From: Acidobacteriota bacterium
Lineage (GTDB): Bacteria > Acidobacteriota > Terriglobia > Terriglobales > SCQP01
DNA length: 64,000 nucleotides
Assembly: GCA_004299485.1 (NCBI GenBank)
Contig: SCQP01000001.1
Coordinates: 248,001-312,000 of the forward strand
Direction: 5' to 3'
Both the position numbers and the translations under genes were made by a program. Below the pieces are notes generated by a model that did no database searches, was not told the DNA's origin, and saw only the letters and a list, made by a program, of their open reading frames with translations. Each line of letters opens with the position of its first letter. Positions within the stretch are counted from its first letter, which is position 1. Positions 26,305 to 52,223 of this stretch are shown piece by piece.

Positions 26305-26380
26305 AGTTTTCAGTTTTCAGTCGTCAGTTCTCAGTTCGGATCGTGGCAACTGAAAACTGAATACTGAGAACTGAGAACCC
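26304..26380. repeat. Eleven heptads forming an inverted array between ftsL and ftsI
   Basis: The 77 bases that begin with the last base of the ftsL stop codon and end at the base before the ftsI start are eleven 7-bp units. The first five are CAGTTTT-like; the sixth is a divergent hinge (GATCGTG); the last five are complementary (AAAACTG-like). The two halves can form a long imperfect hairpin in the mRNA. Confidence 0.8.
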
Positions 26381-32225: not shown

Positions 32226-32246
32226 AGGCCGAAAGCACTGGGCGGC

Positions 32247-32287
32247 AGTGGTTAGTGGCTAGTGGCTAGTGGCTAGTGAAGGCTCGG
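32247..32287. repeat. TAGTGGC heptads followed by AAGGCTCGG
   Basis: Four or so TAGTGGC-type 7-mers followed by AAGGCTCGGAAG fill the gap between mraY and murD. The same composite (heptads then GGCTCGG) recurs at 40018-40240 and 43483-43515. Confidence 0.7.
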
Positions 32288-32298
32288 AAGTGAGGCGT

Positions 32299-33723
32299 AT
32301 GGAGATTGAGGGACAACGGATATTGGTCGTGGGGATGGCGGCGAGCGGGATGGCGGCGGCGCGGTTCTTGCGGAAACGCGGAGCAAGGGTCGTGGTCTCG
32401 GAGGTGCGGGCGGCCGTAGAGCTGCGGGCGCAGATCGCCGAACTGCTGGACGCGGGGATTGCCGTCGAAACCGGGGGGCATCGCGAGCGGAGTTTTCTGG
32501 ACGCGGACCTGATCATCACCAGTCCGGGAGTGCCGGCGGATTTGCCGCTGCTGCGGCGGGCGCGGGCGCAACAGACGCCGGTGCTGGGCGAGCTGGAGCT
32601 GGCGTCGCGGTACTTGCGGGGGATGCTGGTGGCCATAACCGGGGCGAACGGGAAGACCACCACCACGGCGTTGACAGGGCATATTCTGACGGCGTGCGGA
32701 CGCAAGGTGCAGGTAGGCGGCAATATTGGCACGCCGCTGATCTCGCTGGTGGAGAGCTCGACGGCGGAGACGGTGAACGTGGTGGAGGCGTCGAGTTTTC
32801 AGTTGGAGACGACCGAGACGTTTCATCCGCATGTGGCGGCAGTGCTGAACCTGTCGCCCGACCATCTCGACCGGCATGGCAGCATGGAGGCGTATGCGGC
32901 GGCGAAGCAGCGGATTTTCCGGAACCAGACGAAGGAGGATTTTGCGGTGCTCAATCCCAATGACGTCTGGTGCCGGCAGTTTGCTGCGGTGCTGAACAGC
33001 CAGGCGGTGTGGTTTGCGGCATTTCCGCTGGAGTCGCAGACCGGCGCGGAAGTGCGCGAGGGGCAGATCGTGTGGACGCGGGGGGGCAAGCAGCATCCGA
33101 TTATGCCGGTGAAGGAAGTGCCGCTGCCGGGCGCGCACAATCTGGAAAACGTGCTGGCGGCAGTGGCGATGGCGTGTCTGGTGGCGGGGCCGGAAGCGGC
33201 GCCGGCGATCCGCCAGGCGGTGGGCAGCTTCAAGGCCGTCGAGCACCGGTTGGAGTACGTGGCGACCATCAACGGCGTGGCGTATTACAACGACTCGAAA
33301 GCCACGAACGTGGACGCGACCATGAAGGCGCTGGCGTCGTTCGAGAAGGGCATCTGGATCATTCTGGGCGGCAAGGACAAGGGCAGCGACTACACGACGC
33401 TGGAGCCGCTGCTGCGGGAGCGGGCGCGGGGCGTGCTGTTGATTGGCGCGGCCACCGAAAAGATCGCGGCGCAGCTTGCGCCGCTGAGTGCGGCCGTACC
33501 ACTGACGCGCTGCGGGACGCTCGATCAGGCGATTGCCACCGCCAGCGCGCAGGCGCAGGCGGGGGACACGATTCTGCTGGCGCCGGCGTGCGCGAGCTTC
33601 GATCAGTTTGAGAACTACGGGCATCGCGGGCGGATGTTCAAAGAGCTGGTGCGTAAATTAGGGGCCAGGGGTCAGGGGCCAGGGGCCGGCGGTCATCAGT
33701 CATCAGTCATCAGTCATCAGTAA
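32299..33723 (+). CDS. murD: UDP-MurNAc-L-Ala:D-Glu ligase MurD
   Basis: A 474-residue cytoplasmic ligase adding D-glutamate to UDP-MurNAc-L-Ala. The ATG at 32299 (MEIEGQRILVVGMAASGMAAARFL) is preferred to an in-frame start at 32269 that lies in the repeat. The ATP site VAITGANGKTTTTAL, NLSPDHLDRHGSM and YYNDSKATNVDATMKAL are MurD signatures. The last 21 codons, including the stop, are made of heptad repeats, giving a low-complexity tail (residues about 454-474) that is unlikely to be part of the fold. ftsW starts on the next base. Confidence 0.94.
   Translation: MEIEGQRILVVGMAASGMAAARFLRKRGARVVVSEVRAAVELRAQIAELLDAGIAVETGGHRERSFLDADLIITSPGVPADLPLLRRARAQQTPVLGELELASRYLRGMLVAITGANGKTTTTALTGHILTACGRKVQVGGNIGTPLISLVESSTAETVNVVEASSFQLETTETFHPHVAAVLNLSPDHLDRHGSMEAYAAAKQRIFRNQTKEDFAVLNPNDVWCRQFAAVLNSQAVWFAAFPLESQTGAEVREGQIVWTRGGKQHPIMPVKEVPLPGAHNLENVLAAVAMACLVAGPEAAPAIRQAVGSFKAVEHRLEYVATINGVAYYNDSKATNVDATMKALASFEKGIWIILGGKDKGSDYTTLEPLLRERARGVLLIGAATEKIAAQLAPLSAAVPLTRCGTLDQAIATASAQAQAGDTILLAPACASFDQFENYGHRGRMFKELVRKLGARGQGPGAGGHQSSVISHQ
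33660..33722. repeat. Nine heptads coding the MurD C-terminus
   Basis: Four AGGGGCC-type units, one transitional unit, then four ATCAGTC/ATCAGTA units, 63 bp in all and in unbroken 7-bp phase. The stop codon TAA uses the last two bases of the array plus the following base. Two unrelated heptad families are fused here. Confidence 0.8.
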
Positions 33724-34812
33724 ATGCCGAAGAAACTCGCCTATGACCGGACGTTGTTTGTTACTACGCTGGCGCTGGTGACGTTCGGGCTGGTGATGGT
33801 GTTTTCGGCTTCGGCGCTGATGTCGGCGGAGCAGTTCCGCTCGCCCTACAGCTTTCTGCTGCGGCAGGGGGCAGGGGCGGTGCTGGGGCTGATCGCCATG
33901 GTAGTGCTGATGCGGTTGGATTACCGCAAGCTGCGGGAGCCGCAGGTGGTGTATCCGCTGCTGTGCCTGACGGTGCTGCTGCTGGTGGCGGTGTTCGGAC
34001 TGGACCGCTCGCACAACACGCACCGCTGGATCCGCATGGGGCCGCTGTCGCTGCAGCCGTCGGAGCTGGCGAAGCCGGTGCTGGTGCTGTTTCTGGCGTT
34101 CTATCTGGAAAACAAGCTGCGGGATGTGAATGAGTGGCTCACGCTGGGGCCGATTCTGGTCTGCCTGGTGGCGCTGTGCGGGCTGGTGGTGTTCGAGCCG
34201 GACCTGGGCACGACAGTGGCGCTGGCGCTGATCGCGGCCACGATGCTGTACGTCGCGGGCCTGCGCTGGAAATGGATGGGCTACGGGGCGCTGGTCAGTC
34301 TGCCGATTCTGTATGTGCTCGTGTTTCACGTGCATTACCGGCGGGAGCGGATCCTGGCGTTTCTGCATCCCTGGCAACATGCGCGCAATGTGGCGTTCCA
34401 GATCGTGCAGTCGCTGATTGCGCTGGGCAGCGGCGGCTGGGCGGGAGTGGGGCTGATGAACGGGCGGCAGAAGCTGTTTTTTCTGCCCGAGGCGCACAGC
34501 GACTTCATTTTCGCGGTGGTGGGCGAGGAGTTCGGCTGGGTGGGCTGCACGCTGATTGTGCTGGCGTTTCTGATTTTCCTGTGGCGCGGGTTGCGGATTG
34601 CGCGGCGGGCGCCGGACAGCTTTGGGCGGCTGCTGGCGATTGGGGTAACGGCGATGATTGTGATTCAGGCGCTGATCAACTTCAGCGTGGTGACGAGCAT
34701 TTTGCCGGACAAGGGGATTCCGCTCCCGTTCATCAGCTACGGAGGCTCGTCGCTGCTGTTTTCGCTGGCGGCGGTGGGGATGCTGCTGAGCGTGTCGCAG
34801 TACACGAGCTAG
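33724..34812 (+). CDS. ftsW: Septal peptidoglycan polymerase FtsW (SEDS family)
   Basis: A 362-residue SEDS glycosyltransferase that polymerises lipid II at the septum with FtsI. ATG directly after the murD stop. About ten helices; conserved SEDS features include LVMVFSASALMS, NTHRWIRMGPLSLQPSELAKP, FEPDLGTTVALALIA, EAHSDFIFAVVGEEFGWVG and LPFISYGGSSLLFSLAAVGML. Length is normal. It lies 1 bp before murG. Confidence 0.95.
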   Translation: MPKKLAYDRTLFVTTLALVTFGLVMVFSASALMSAEQFRSPYSFLLRQGAGAVLGLIAMVVLMRLDYRKLREPQVVYPLLCLTVLLLVAVFGLDRSHNTHRWIRMGPLSLQPSELAKPVLVLFLAFYLENKLRDVNEWLTLGPILVCLVALCGLVVFEPDLGTTVALALIAATMLYVAGLRWKWMGYGALVSLPILYVLVFHVHYRRERILAFLHPWQHARNVAFQIVQSLIALGSGGWAGVGLMNGRQKLFFLPEAHSDFIFAVVGEEFGWVGCTLIVLAFLIFLWRGLRIARRAPDSFGRLLAIGVTAMIVIQALINFSVVTSILPDKGIPLPFISYGGSSLLFSLAAVGMLLSVSQYTS

Positions 34813-34813
34813 T

Positions 34814-35875
34814 ATGGCGACGTCAGGGAGCATCGTCATTGCCGGGGGCGGGACGGGCGGGCACTTGATGCCGGGGCTGGCGGTAGCGAGAGCCCTCCGG
34901 GAGGCGGGCGCGGAAGAGATCACGTTTGTAGGTACGGCGCGCGGGTTGGAGGCGCGGCTTGTGCCGGCGGCGGGATTTGCGCTGCGGCTGATCCGCATTG
35001 GCGGGCTGAAGTCGGGCGGGCGGCGGCGGCAGTTGGAGACGCTGGTGCAGCTTCCCGCGGCGGTCGCACAGAGCGCGCGGATTCTGCGGCAGGCGCGGGC
35101 GCGGGTGGTGCTGGGCATTGGCGGGTATGCGTCAGGGCCGGTGCTGGCGGCGGCGTGGCTGCTGCGGGTTCCGATTGTGTTGCTGGAGGTCAACGCCAAG
35201 ACGGGGCTGGCCAACCGCTGGGCGGCGCGCTGGGCGCGGGCGTCGGCGGTGAATTTTCCCGAGACCGCACGGGATTTTGCACATGCCGAGGTTACCGGGA
35301 TTCCGGTGCGGCCTGAGTTTTTCGCTCCCTGGCCTCTGGCTCCTGACCCCTCGCCCCTGGTCCTCGTCTTCGGCGGCAGCCAGGGGGCGCACGCGCTGAA
35401 CGAGGCCGTTGCTGCGATGGCGGCCGGGGTGGATTTCCGCATCCTGCACCAGACCGGGCCGCGCGATTGGGAGGCGGTTGCCGCGCGGTACGCGGGCCTG
35501 GGCGAGCGGGTGCGGGCGGTGGCATTCATCGACCAGATGGCGGAGGCGATGGCGGAGGCGGCGGTGGTGGTGTGCCGGTCGGGGGCGAGCACGCTGGGGG
35601 AGATTGCAGCGGCGCGCAAGCCGGCGATTCTGGTGCCGCTGCCCAACTCGACCGACCAGCACCAGTTGCGCAACGCCCAGGCGTTTGCCGCCGCGGGCGC
35701 GGCAGTACTGCTGGAGCAGGCGCAACTGACGCCGGAGCGGCTCGCCGAGACGCTGCGGGCGTTGCTGGCCGATGCCCCGCGACGGGCGGCGATGGCGGAG
35801 GCGCTGGGTGGGTTCGCGCACGCGGGGGCGGCCGAGGCGATTGCGCGGCTGGTGCTGCGGCAGCGGCGCTGGTAG
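34814..35875 (+). CDS. murG: Lipid II synthase MurG (GlcNAc transferase)
   Basis: A 353-residue glycosyltransferase adding GlcNAc to lipid I at the inner face of the membrane. The N-terminal GGGTGGHLMPGLAVARALRE and GIGGYASGPVLAAAWLL motifs and the C-terminal VFGGSQGAHALNEAV, VVCRSGASTLGEIAAARKPAILVPLPNSTDQHQLRNA block are diagnostic. The inter-domain loop around residues 172-185 (APWPLAPDPSPL) is coded by heptad repeats. It is the last gene of the cluster here; murC is missing downstream, where a tandem duplication carrying the murG 3' end is found. Confidence 0.95.
   Translation: MATSGSIVIAGGGTGGHLMPGLAVARALREAGAEEITFVGTARGLEARLVPAAGFALRLIRIGGLKSGGRRRQLETLVQLPAAVAQSARILRQARARVVLGIGGYASGPVLAAAWLLRVPIVLLEVNAKTGLANRWAARWARASAVNFPETARDFAHAEVTGIPVRPEFFAPWPLAPDPSPLVLVFGGSQGAHALNEAVAAMAAGVDFRILHQTGPRDWEAVAARYAGLGERVRAVAFIDQMAEAMAEAAVVVCRSGASTLGEIAAARKPAILVPLPNSTDQHQLRNAQAFAAAGAAVLLEQAQLTPERLAETLRALLADAPRRAAMAEALGGFAHAGAAEAIARLVLRQRRW
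35325..35366. repeat. Heptad array inside murG
   Basis: CTCCCTG, GCCTCTG, GCTCCTG, ACCCCTC, GCCCCTG and GTCCTCG are six consecutive 7-mers of the CCCCTGG family, translated as the loop between the two MurG domains. Confidence 0.7.
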
Positions 35876-36376
35876 GCGAGACCAGACTCACACGCTGTTC
35901 CTTTTTTTTCCGCTAAGTGTCTCACTTTGCAGTGCAAAGCTGCGTGTTTACTGGGAATCCTGAATGTTTCGGGTGGCACACGTGGAACAGCAAATGGAAC
36001 AGCAGGTCTATCGGTCGATCGGTCTATCGGTCTGTCGGCCGGCACGGGGATAGGAGCGGGATAGCGTCTGAGCGCAGTTCAGGTGTTCTGTCGACGGTGC
36101 GCGCCCACGGAAGCCATTGCTCGGCTAGTGCTGCAGCGGAGCTGGGCGTAGGTTGAATCTGTCTCACGCCCTGTTCTTTTTTTGGTGCTAAGTGTCCCAC
36201 TTTGCAATACAAAGTTTTGTGTTTCCTTGGAGTTACGCGCGCGAAGGGTGAGACAGGCGAGACAGCAAATGGAACAGCGGGGCTATCGGTCAATCGGTCT
36301 GTCGGTCGGCAGGGGGATAGGGGCGGGATAGCGTCTTGACGCAGTTCAGGTGTTCTGTCGGCGGTGCGCACCCACG
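35834..36376. repeat. Tandem duplication including the murG 3' end
   Basis: Two diverged copies with a 276-bp period. Copy A (35834-36109) starts in the last 14 codons of murG (EAIARLVLRQRRW); copy B (36110-36376) starts with EAIARLVLQRSWA and a stop. Both then contain CTGTTC, a T-run, GCTAAGTGT, a CTTTG...CAAAG inverted repeat, an octamer array (CTATCGGT-type; 36008-36039 and 36283-36306), GATAG/CGGGATAGCGTC and CAGTTCAGGTGTTCTGTCG. Neither copy has a convincing gene. Confidence 0.75.
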
Positions 36377-36498
36377 GTGTCCGGCGGGTTGCCCGGCGCA
36401 GCGCCGCGGCGTGGCATGGGCGGCGACGCTGCTAGGATGGCTACGAATGGTTAGAAGCGGAAAAGAGCTGGGTGGTTGGCCGGAGGTGGTGATTTTAA

Positions 36499-39993: not shown

Positions 39994-40017
39994 GTTCAGT
40001 ATTAGAGGATGGAAAAG

Positions 40018-40256
40018 GCTCGGAGGTCAAGGCGGCACCCAGGGGCGGAGTGGGCGGAGGCGGCACGGCGGGGCTATCATGACGGGAATAGTGGCTAGTG
40101 GCTAGGGGTTAGTGGCTAGCCGGGCTCGGAGGTCAAGGCGGCACCCGAAGGCGGGGTAGGCCCAAGGGGCACGGCGGATCTATGATGGCCGGGAATAGTG
40201 GCTAGTGGCTAGGGGTTAGTGGCTAGCCGGGCTCGGAGGATGAACGGGGGCGGGGC
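40018..40256. repeat. Tandem 107-bp repeats with TAGTGGC heptads
   Basis: GCTCGGAGGTCAAGGCGGCA begins at 40018 and 40124 and partially at 40231, giving a 106-107 bp period. Each unit ends in TAGTGGC heptads (40089-40120; 40196-40228). The whole 263-bp gap between the TPR gene and the four-helix-bundle gene is this array. Confidence 0.8.
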
Positions 40257-40640
40257 GTGGTGAAATCTTACGAGGATTTGATTGTTTGGCAGAAGGCGAT
40301 GGCACTCGTCACCGAGGTGTATAAGGCGACCGGGAGGTTCCCGGCGGCGGAGATGTACGGATTGACTAGTCAGATCCGGCGGGCGGCGGTTTCGGTGCCA
40401 TCCAATATCGCCGAGGGGCAGGGGCGGGAGGGGAGTAAGGAGTTCCGCCATTTTCTGGCCATCGCCAAGGGGTCCTTGCAGGAGTTGCGGACGCAGATTC
40501 GGATTGCACAGAACCTGGGGTTCCTGAAGGCGGAGGAGATGGGGAGCATGCTTGAGCATTCGGATGAGGTCGCGCGGATGCCCAGCGGGCTGTTAACATC
40601 CCTGAAGGAGAGGAGCCGGCTGCTAGCCACTAACCACTAG
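40257..40640 (+). CDS. Four-helix-bundle protein (23S rRNA IVP/bAvd-like)
   Basis: A 127-residue protein starting at GTG (VVKSYEDLIVWQKAMALVTEVYKAT). The pattern YEDLIVWQKAM, LTSQIRRAAVSVPSNIAEGQGR and EFRHFLAIAKGSLQELRTQI is characteristic of the small four-helix-bundle family found in 23S rRNA intervening sequences and related to the bAvd accessory protein of retroelements. No reverse transcriptase or rRNA is nearby. The last residues (LLATNH) are coded by heptad repeats. TAGTGGC heptads lie before it in direct and after it in inverted orientation. Confidence 0.85.
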   Translation: MVKSYEDLIVWQKAMALVTEVYKATGRFPAAEMYGLTSQIRRAAVSVPSNIAEGQGREGSKEFRHFLAIAKGSLQELRTQIRIAQNLGFLKAEEMGSMLEHSDEVARMPSGLLTSLKERSRLLATNH

Positions 40641-40646
40641 CCACTG
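40622..40646. repeat. Inverted TAGTGGC heptads after the four-helix-bundle gene
   Basis: GCTAGCCACTAACCACTAGC and following bases are the complement of the TAGTGGC arrays at 40089 and 40196. They hold the stop codon of the gene and end 6 bp before the PaaK-like start. Confidence 0.75.
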
Positions 40647-40652
40647 TTCTTT

Positions 40653-42068
40653 ATGCTGGACCAAGTCCCAACTTTATTGGAAAAGCTGTTCTTGGGGCCG
40701 AGTGTGCCGCGGCGGGCGGCGCTGGCGCAGCATGCACCCCGGAAGTGGATCGAGCGGGTGCAGTTGGCGGAGTTTCAGTCAACGCTGGAGCGCGTCAACA
40801 CGCACAGCAAGTTTTACCGGGAGCGGTTTGCCGAGCGCGGGATCAATGTCCGGAACGTCAAGCGGCCGGAAGATTTGGGGGATTTCTATACCACGTCGCA
40901 GAACTTGCGGGAGCGGGACACGCTGGAGTTCGTCTGCTGCCCCCCGCAGGCGGGGTTTGAGACCACCGGCACGACGGCGAAAAACAAGCGGCTGTATTTT
41001 TCCAACGAAGAAGTCCATGACATTGGGTTTGAGGGCGCCGTGGGGTTGTGGAACTTAGGACTGCGGCCGGAAGATCGCGTGGTGGACGCGTTTGACTATG
41101 CCTTCTGGAATGCCGGCATCAGCCTGATGCACTCGCTCAACGCGATGGGCTGCTTCCACATGATTGCCTCGAAGCTGGAACCGGCGGAGTTTTACCGGCG
41201 GGTGCGGGATTACGAGTTCAACGTGATGGTGGTCGATACGGCCTGGCTGGTGAGCCTGACGGAGATCGCCGAGCGGCAGGGGACGTGGCCGGTAAAGTTC
41301 ATCCTTTCCGGCAGCGAGGCGATGAGCGACCGGACGCGTAAGTGGATTGAGGGCGTGTGGAACACGAAAGTTTACCAGGCGTATGGACAGACGGAGTCGC
41401 TGGGGGCGAGCGGGATTGAATGCCCGGCGCAAAAGGGTTATCACCTGAACGAGGCCAACTTCATTTTTGAAATTCTGAACCCGAACGAAGAGGGATTCGG
41501 CGAGCTGGTGTTCAGCACGATTACGCGCAAGGTGATGCCACTGATCCGCTACCGGTCAAACGACATTACGCGGTTTCTGGACGAGCCGTGCGGGTGCGTG
41601 CTGCAGAAGTTGCGGCGGATTGACGCCATTCAGGGGAGGGGAGATGAGATCATTTCCTGCGGCATGGGGATGATCAGCCCGTGGATATTCGAGAAGCTGC
41701 TGGCGGCGGATGCGCGGATTACCGACGACTGGCAGGTGGCGGTAACACAGCCGGAGAGCCGGGACATTATTGAGATCCGGTTGGAGGTGCGGGACGGGGC
41801 GGGCGGGAGCTCGCGCGAGCTGGCCAGCCGGGAAGCGGCGCTGCGGCAGCGGTTCGCCGAGATATTCCCTTACTACCAGAAGAACCTGCAGATGGGGATG
41901 TTCGACCTGAAGGTTCAGTGGTTGCCGCACGGGACACTACGCGGCGGTGGCGATGGCGGCCGGCGGAAGTTGCGCCGCGTAGTGGACGAACGGCTTGCGC
42001 CGTCTTTACGAGGGGCTTCGCCCCTGGCCCCCCGCTGGTCGGCCACCCCTACTAGCGGTGATCAGTGA
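40653..42068 (+). CDS. PaaK/CapK-like adenylate-forming enzyme 1
   Basis: A 471-residue protein of the phenylacetate-CoA ligase-like family, which activates acids as acyl-AMP and passes them to CoA or a carrier protein. The N-terminal part has HSKFYRERFAERGINV; GFETTGTTAKNKRLYFS is the ATP-binding P-loop region; YQAYGQTESLGASG and LIRYRSNDITRF are the later A-motifs. The C-terminal lid is present (NLQMGMFDLKVQWLP, RKLRRVVDERLAP). The last 20 or so residues are coded by a dispersed repeat. It is the first gene of the ketosynthase cluster; homologue 2 ends the core of it. The acid substrate (aryl or fatty) is unknown. Confidence 0.82.
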   Translation: MLDQVPTLLEKLFLGPSVPRRAALAQHAPRKWIERVQLAEFQSTLERVNTHSKFYRERFAERGINVRNVKRPEDLGDFYTTSQNLRERDTLEFVCCPPQAGFETTGTTAKNKRLYFSNEEVHDIGFEGAVGLWNLGLRPEDRVVDAFDYAFWNAGISLMHSLNAMGCFHMIASKLEPAEFYRRVRDYEFNVMVVDTAWLVSLTEIAERQGTWPVKFILSGSEAMSDRTRKWIEGVWNTKVYQAYGQTESLGASGIECPAQKGYHLNEANFIFEILNPNEEGFGELVFSTITRKVMPLIRYRSNDITRFLDEPCGCVLQKLRRIDAIQGRGDEIISCGMGMISPWIFEKLLAADARITDDWQVAVTQPESRDIIEIRLEVRDGAGGSSRELASREAALRQRFAEIFPYYQKNLQMGMFDLKVQWLPHGTLRGGGDGGRRKLRRVVDERLAPSLRGASPLAPRWSATPTSGDQ

Positions 42069-43471: not shown

Positions 43472-43482
43472 GTACGTAGAAC

Positions 43483-43515
43483 AGTGGCTAGTGGCTAGTG
43501 GTTAGTGGCTAGTCA
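43483..43515. repeat. TAGTGGC heptads then AAGGCTCGGG
   Basis: Heptads AGTGGCTAGTGGCTAGTGG and so on followed by TCAAGGCTCGGGAG, just upstream of the enoyl reductase gene. Same composite as 32247-32287. Confidence 0.7.
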
Positions 43516-44828: not shown

Positions 44829-44870
44829 AGAGGGAAGAGGGAAGAGGGAAAAGGGAAAAGGGAAGAGGGG
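44829..44870. repeat. AGAGGGA heptad array
   Basis: AGAGGGA x3, AAAGGGA x2, AGAGGGG: six 7-bp units in the 62-bp gap between the carrier protein and the dehydratase. It is purine-only and could also act as a run of Shine-Dalgarno-like sequence. Confidence 0.75.
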
Positions 44871-52188: not shown

Positions 52189-52223
52189 CAGTTGTCAGTT
52201 ATCAGTTGTCAGTTGTCAGTTTT
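52189..52223. repeat. CAGTTGT heptad array
   Basis: Five units (CAGTTGT, CAGTTAT, CAGTTGT, CAGTTGT, CAGTTTT) begin on the base after the ligase stop codon. Confidence 0.8.

Follow-up and report, generated by a model that had tools for sequence, protein, structure and literature searches.

Genes of the Pfam family PF05635 (23S_rRNA_IVP, hereafter IVP) lie between two inverted arms of tandem heptanucleotides, and the existence of this IVP–heptad unit is nearly certain. Comparisons among sequenced genomes indicate that the heptad-flanked PF05635 unit is apparently a widespread, small and undescribed mobile element. The heptad arrays translated in murD and murG of the window, by which we mean the whole 64,000-nucleotide stretch analysed here, are probably solo derivatives of such units, a reading to which our analysis assigns a probability of roughly two in three.

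Heptad arrays in the coding sequences of murD and murG

The murD gene is situated at 32299–33723 on the forward strand, and its Mur ligase domains extend to residue 431, followed by a heptad-coded tail at approximately residues 455–474. Two translated forward-strand arrays compose this tail. The first, (AGGGGYC)x4 at 33660–33687, encodes the first part of the extra C-terminus with the units AGGGGCC, AGGGGTC, AGGGGCC and AGGGGCC in that order, while the second, (GTCATCA)x4.3, occupies positions 33692–33721 and finishes on the T of the stop codon TAA (33721–33723). The first-pass annotation had described the end of murD as heptads with the stop codon lying across the array end, which the 4 + 4.3 units bear out. 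The extra residues, ARGQGPGAGGHQSSVISHQ, follow the sequence '..FKELVRKLG', the usual endpoint of related MurDs. MurD was found in 60 of the 60 genomes searched, and the C-terminal ends were read for 29 relatives, none of which had a tail comparable to these approximately 20 heptad-encoded residues; the closest proteins (78%, 73% and 68% identity) are 453–462 residues long and end without it.

Regarding murG (34814–35875, forward strand), Pfam domains were located at residues 7–143 and 183–340. Approximately residues 171–182, in the linker between these two glycosyltransferase domains, are encoded by a degenerate array (CAGGGGY)x5 on the reverse strand (35325–35359; 30/35 match), in the opposite orientation to the murD array. 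Six heptads had been proposed for this loop; the array and its place in the inter-domain linker were upheld, with the count lowered to about five degenerate units rather than six clean ones. Its status as an insertion was also revised: while MurD gained a tail, the MurG linker was not lengthened, its length being the mode of the order and shorter than in two genomes of the same genus, so a net insertion in MurG was ruled out. Coincidence in the codons of a proline-rich linker could account for an array that is degenerate and adds no length, the more so as such linkers are variable, but the match of 30/35 to the local heptad family makes this quite improbable. Across the 589-kb contig, just 10 sites matched (CAGGGGY)5 at 27/35 or better, and almost all of these are heptad arrays; the best match in order-5 Markov simulations of the contig was 25.

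When MurD and MurG were aligned with their relatives, the array-coded residues were not conserved, and both the MurD tail and the MurG linker sequence were missing in relatives, including those of the same genus. The view that the arrays are lineage-specific and tolerated at the protein level was therefore sustained. The murD array is situated between murD and ftsW, and a regulatory role, such as a translation regulator site controlling ftsW, could be considered, given that a role of this type was proposed for the TAACTGA repeats of Beggiatoaceae in the excerpted text of MacGregor 2015 (PMC4679880). This is scarcely probable here, since the array is missing at the same junction in relatives, its RNA structure is ordinary (RNA fold z 0.66, with no unusual structure at the murD array), and no functional pattern was apparent at the other arrays.

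Heptad arrays across the genome of the window

The survey of arrays covered 464 kb of the genome for repeat periods and one whole 589-kb contig for positions. Period 7 yielded 33 arrays with a score of at least 14 in 464 kb, compared with no more than seven for any other period below 14, and the tandem 7-nt units thus exceed chance, as is characteristic of heptameric long simple sequence repeats. The contig, for which a home-made gene caller predicted 480 genes (89% coding), bears 51 arrays, that is, about one similar array per 12 kb. Twenty-four of these are located within 15 bp of a stop codon, whereas random intergenic placement would predict 9%, and ten overlap the stop codon itself. With arrays occurring this often and overlapping stops in this proportion, essential genes are not special targets, and the emphasis that the first-pass annotation placed on essential enzymes was misplaced; the same statistics indicate that it is commonplace in this genome for a C-terminus to be encoded by heptads. 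In 18 of the 24 stop-adjacent arrays (18:6), the strand carrying the YAGK motif was that of the ending gene.

Several arrays of the window illustrate these positions. Solo arrays of the AGTGGCT type are located on the forward strand at 32246–32278, 20 bp past the mraY stop codon, and at 43482–43513, after a stop codon; an AGAGGGA array (44829–44869, forward) likewise follows a stop codon, and a CAGTTGT array (52189–52221, forward) begins immediately past one. The CAGGGGY and GTCATCA heptads of murD and murG recur elsewhere in the genome, for example as a CAGGGGY array of the murD/murG type at 542–582 on the reverse strand, within an ORF. Closely spaced matched arrays are arranged convergently on the contig, as pairs separated by a short loop. 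One gene-less hairpin of inverted CAGTTNT-type heptads has its left arm at 26305–26337 (forward) and its right arm at 26348–26378 (reverse), and the two arms pair with each other (RNA fold z -5.9 for 26305–26378).

Arrays of this kind could be ordinary long simple sequence repeats, unrelated to IVP genes and expanded by polymerase slippage that is favoured at 7 nt; slippage was proposed for heptads by Mrazek 2007, as cited in PMC4679880 and PMC4692102. Many bacterial genomes have heptads as their most abundant long repeats, and heptad copy numbers vary; both observations fit slippage. What slippage does not readily produce is the same order of unit variants over 31 bp at separate sites, and the first 31 bases of the array at 43482–43513 are identical to an array located at C1:384223-384253 on the same contig. 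Taken together with the evidence from IVP loci given below, we consider slippage by itself an unlikely origin of the arrays.

Inverted heptad arms at IVP loci

The four-helix-bundle gene of the window (40257–40640, forward strand) encodes a PF05635 protein scoring 138 bits against a curated cut-off of 33.8 and covering positions 1–104 of 106. Its sole solved relative by sequence is 2GSC (XCC0516 of Xanthomonas; E 7.6e-27), and the bAvd profile matched it weakly, with 29.5 bits, below the cut-off of 40. The gene is flanked upstream by a 5' arm of AGTGGCT heptads (40196–40226, forward), of which a second copy (40089–40119, forward) lies within a 106-bp tandem duplication (40017–40239), and downstream by a 3' arm (40623–40646, reverse), an inverted copy of the 5' arm that overlaps the IVP stop codon. 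In the predicted RNA fold, the two inverted arms base-pair with each other (z -2.4). The link between the heptad arrays and this PF05635 gene had escaped the first-pass annotation. The earlier statement that this gene ends in repeat sequence was correct, the protein terminating in heptads as ..LLATNH followed by the stop, inside CTAGCCACTAACCACTAG; the same statement for the adjacent PaaK-like gene at 40653 was not, as no period-7 array is present there. The tail of the PaaK-like protein is somewhat longer than in relatives. The unit sits between a TPR-type gene and the PaaK-like gene (paaK), not within a 23S rRNA gene. None of the same-genus relatives with a readable junction has an IVP gene at this position, which is thus occupied in the window genome alone.

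Inverted heptad arms flank each of the four IVP genes in the window genome, and three of the heptad types of these arms (AGTGGCT, CAGTTNT and CAGCTTA) are among the commonest solo types of the contig. The murD and murG heptads (CAGGGGY and GTCATCA) did not match the IVP genes of this assembly, and their source unit would therefore be one that is inferred or has been lost.

The association extends well beyond this genome. Arms were scored by comparing the upstream flank with the reverse-complemented downstream flank, with 629 windows 1–2.3 kb away as controls. The median score was 17 at 30 PF05635 loci of related genomes, compared with 8 for permuted pairings, and 14.5 versus 8 at 78 further loci from named organisms of many phyla, including Acidobacteria, Planctomycetes, Bacteroidetes, Clostridia, Proteobacteria, Chloroflexi, CPR and an archaeal MAG. 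After pooling, 66.7% of 105 PF05635 loci scored at least 13, compared with 0.64% of the 629 control windows, and 55% scored at least 15, a level that no control window reached; approximately one third of the IVP loci had no clear inverted arms. Matching of the flanks in direct orientation was much weaker (15% of loci versus 1.6% of controls). The period enriched at PF05635 loci was 7 (and 14). When phase and strand were picked by the best YAGK fit, with both strands handled alike, the 5' arm of 59 out of 66 decided loci showed YAGK when read on the coding strand (59:7). The heptad itself is locus-specific: in these 59 loci, the commonest unit took 56 different forms. Matched inverted arms around IVP genes are not what slippage at unrelated sites would leave, and they are terminal inverted repeats that pair into a stem with the ORF in its loop, as in 23S rRNA intervening sequences (IVS).

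Likewise, heptad load follows IVP number. In 297 genomes of the phylum, PF05635 genes were compared with matches of YAGKNNNYAGKNNNYAGKNNNYAGK plus its backward form; the backward pattern, intended as a control, also picks up genuine heptads of a different type, and the sum of both was therefore used. The two counts correlated with a rho of 0.74, where matches overlap inside arrays, the IVP genes' own arms add to the total, and kinship is handled by within-group permutation alone (within-genus permutation p 0.0005). Median matches were 1, 13, 70.5 and 85.5 in genomes with 0, 1–2, 3–5 and at least six IVP genes, respectively. In the genus of the window, the genomes had 4, 1, 1, 0 and 0 IVP genes with 148, 25, 1, 0 and 0 matches. 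Exceptions exist in both directions: some genomes have many IVP genes and almost no heptad pattern (e.g., G309, with 15 IVP genes and 0 matches), and a few have heptad matches without an IVP gene (G252, G128 and G292). A load that tracks IVP number down to the genus level is a further argument against slippage unrelated to these genes.

Evidence for mobility of the unit, and its relation to known repeats

Filled and empty sites were compared at three locations. At pheT, the distance from the anchor CATTTAGACT to the start codon is 24 bp in two genomes (G022 and G048), in which no heptads were found at the site, and 553 and 564 bp in two others (G037 and G028), where the interval contains an IVP gene together with a 3' heptad arm ending at the ATG; no clear 5' arm was seen at the filled pheT locus. 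Two Nostoc plasmids have reciprocal filled and empty sites in one operon, with flanks 89–99.7% identical. At site A, the unit is situated between TAA and ATG in one plasmid, and the corresponding sequence of the second plasmid is GGTTCTAGGTTATG; site B is filled in the second plasmid, by a unit with a different heptad, and reads GAGGTAATGGG in the first. No heptads are present at the empty sites A and B, indicating that the IVP gene and its arms arrive together. As possible target-site duplications, pheT gave ATGAA and Nostoc site B gave ATG, with none at site A, and no consistent duplication was found. The unit is present or absent as a discrete block at orthologous sites, as expected of a transposable element, and its arrival with arms at heptad-free sites refutes slippage as the origin of the arms at IVP loci.

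The same sites bear on the converse proposal, namely that IVP genes insert into pre-existing arrays or hairpins and that heptad-rich genomes simply collect more of them. Gene-less hairpins such as that at 26305–26378 do exist, and a correlation by itself does not show which of the two came first; however, the empty pheT sites and the two empty Nostoc junctions lack heptads, and insertion into a plain array would give direct rather than inverted arms. This proposal is contradicted by the heptad-free empty Nostoc sites, and we regard it as very improbable.

The 401–419-bp block of the Nostoc unit was also found at other gene junctions in plasmids of Trichormus, Scytonema and Aulosira. Related plasmids also hold gene-less relatives of this cyanobacterial unit: L386 has lost the interior of the unit, L388 is a short hairpin that keeps its ends, and L390 consists of a single arm. 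Plasmid-borne IVP genes come mostly from heterocystous cyanobacteria, a group long known for heptad repeats. A Y1 transposase or a reverse transcriptase acting in trans was rejected as a requirement: the window genome (G000, 98.8% complete) contains no PF01797 and no PF00078 gene, PF00078 also being absent from 7 of 19 other heptad-rich genomes, and such partners are therefore probably not needed. The lack of a reverse transcriptase also sets the window genome's unit apart from the Avd–RT pairs of diversity-generating retroelements.

The preferred reading, in which the arrays derive from IVP–heptad units, may be outlined as follows. A complete unit of approximately 0.4–0.6 kb consists of the IVP gene between inverted heptad arms, the 5' arm usually composed of YAGKNNN repeats on the coding strand and the 3' arm being its reverse complement, which places the gene in the loop of a long stem. 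It inserts between genes, at or beside a start codon, as seen at the three sites. Slippage within arms, together with copying or template switching between them, may keep the arms of a locus matched, and internal deletion would leave gene-less hairpins and solo arms; once seeded, arms could spread by slippage as well. The murD array would then be a recent, perfect derivative that landed at the murD stop codon with an open sense frame, so that translation reaches a stop at the array end, and the murG array an older, decayed derivative in a tolerant linker. The IVP protein, which in Xanthomonas forms a ring-shaped pentamer, may bind the arms and drive or assist movement.

When compared to known systems, the unit resembles the 23S rRNA IVS with an S23p/IVP ORF of Coxiella and Leptospira, which has been described as selfish, in having a PF05635 ORF in a stem loop, terminal inverted repeats and a size of approximately 0.4 kb. 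It differs in lying between protein genes and in having locus-specific heptad arrays as both arms, and given its location outside 23S rRNA it is not classed as an IVS. In the Coxiella IVS, the S23p start is closely preceded by three tandem GACAGAT heptamers (PMC4990558). REP/RAYT elements and MITEs share the small, palindromic, gene-less copies at gene borders and an autonomous relative, whereas no PF01797 gene occurs in the window genome and the termini here are variable tandem heptads rather than conserved palindromes.

Other heptamers show comparable positions. The TAACTGA repeats of Beggiatoaceae, Cyanobacteria and Bacteroidetes are, in the portion of PMC4679880 available, mostly intergenic, with some overlapping stop codons, some translated and one at the end of MurG (MacGregor 2015); a single fixed heptad is involved there, in contrast to the many found here, and that portion does not connect them to IVP genes. 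The GGGAATC / GGGGAYT heptamers of Xanthomonas and Nostoc share period 7 and a location at gene borders, with 70–75 convergent inverted pairs in Xanthomonas, and differ in being treated as G-quadruplex sequences in the excerpted text of Rehm 2015 (PMC4692102), where the term 'four helix' is absent. The solved IVP structure XCC0516 (2GSC) also comes from Xanthomonas. As far as the excerpts of both papers go, heptads within ORFs and inverted pairs are described with no tie to IVP genes, and a search of open-access journal articles retrieved no literature linking the two.

On balance, we lean slightly towards a broader proposal, in which PF05635 would be the coding part of minimal mobile elements found across bacteria, with inverted locus-specific heptad termini and insertion at stop/start junctions. 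Such elements would be the common source of the unexplained heptamers seen in many genomes, among them the classic repeats of Cyanobacteria, Beggiatoaceae and Xanthomonas, and would now and then give rise to a new protein tail, as in MurD. The fold of the IVP/S23p family has been solved, and we know of no role assigned to it. If the proposal is correct, the role of IVP/S23p and the origin of abundant heptamers would become one testable problem, the unit would represent a very small mobile element without a recognised transposase or reverse transcriptase, and its derivatives would provide a route from intergenic repeats to protein tails in essential enzymes.

Duplicated repeats around the IVP gene and murG

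Upstream of the IVP gene of the window (PF05635; 40257..40640, + strand), the 5′ heptad arm is present twice (40196..40226 and 40089..40119), both copies being borne by a 106-bp tandem duplication at 40017-40239 whose units match at 88%. Further repeats were observed 3′ of murG (34814..35875, + strand), where the intergenic region at 35890-36380 holds a block of approximately 190 bp in two diverged copies, extending from GCTAAGTGTCYCACTTTGCARTRCAAAG to GGTGTTCTGTCGRCGGTGCGC and containing an array of the 8-mer GGTCTATC.

IVP units in other genomes and plasmids

Very long inverted heptad arms surround the IVP genes of loci L165 and L170, from a planctomycete and a Terriglobia MAG, with ungapped arm match scores of 132 and 137, respectively. 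On the Nostoc plasmid L376 (NZ_CP054697.1), the IVP unit is flanked by the ribonucleotide reductase beta and alpha genes and lies on the strand opposite to them. In two cyanobacterial plasmids, L375 and L381, IVP units are situated in CRISPR loci (type I-D in L375) between cas6 and cas4.

Distribution among Acidobacteriota

Three genomes (G309, G190, and G110) carry 7-15 PF05635 genes each with almost no heptad hits, and may use another repeat type or harbor a different PF05635 subfamily. Since IVP genes are located immediately 5′ of pheT in several genera (genomes G014, G030, G026, and G031), this site may represent a recurrent insertion site or, alternatively, an old insertion since lost from some lineages.
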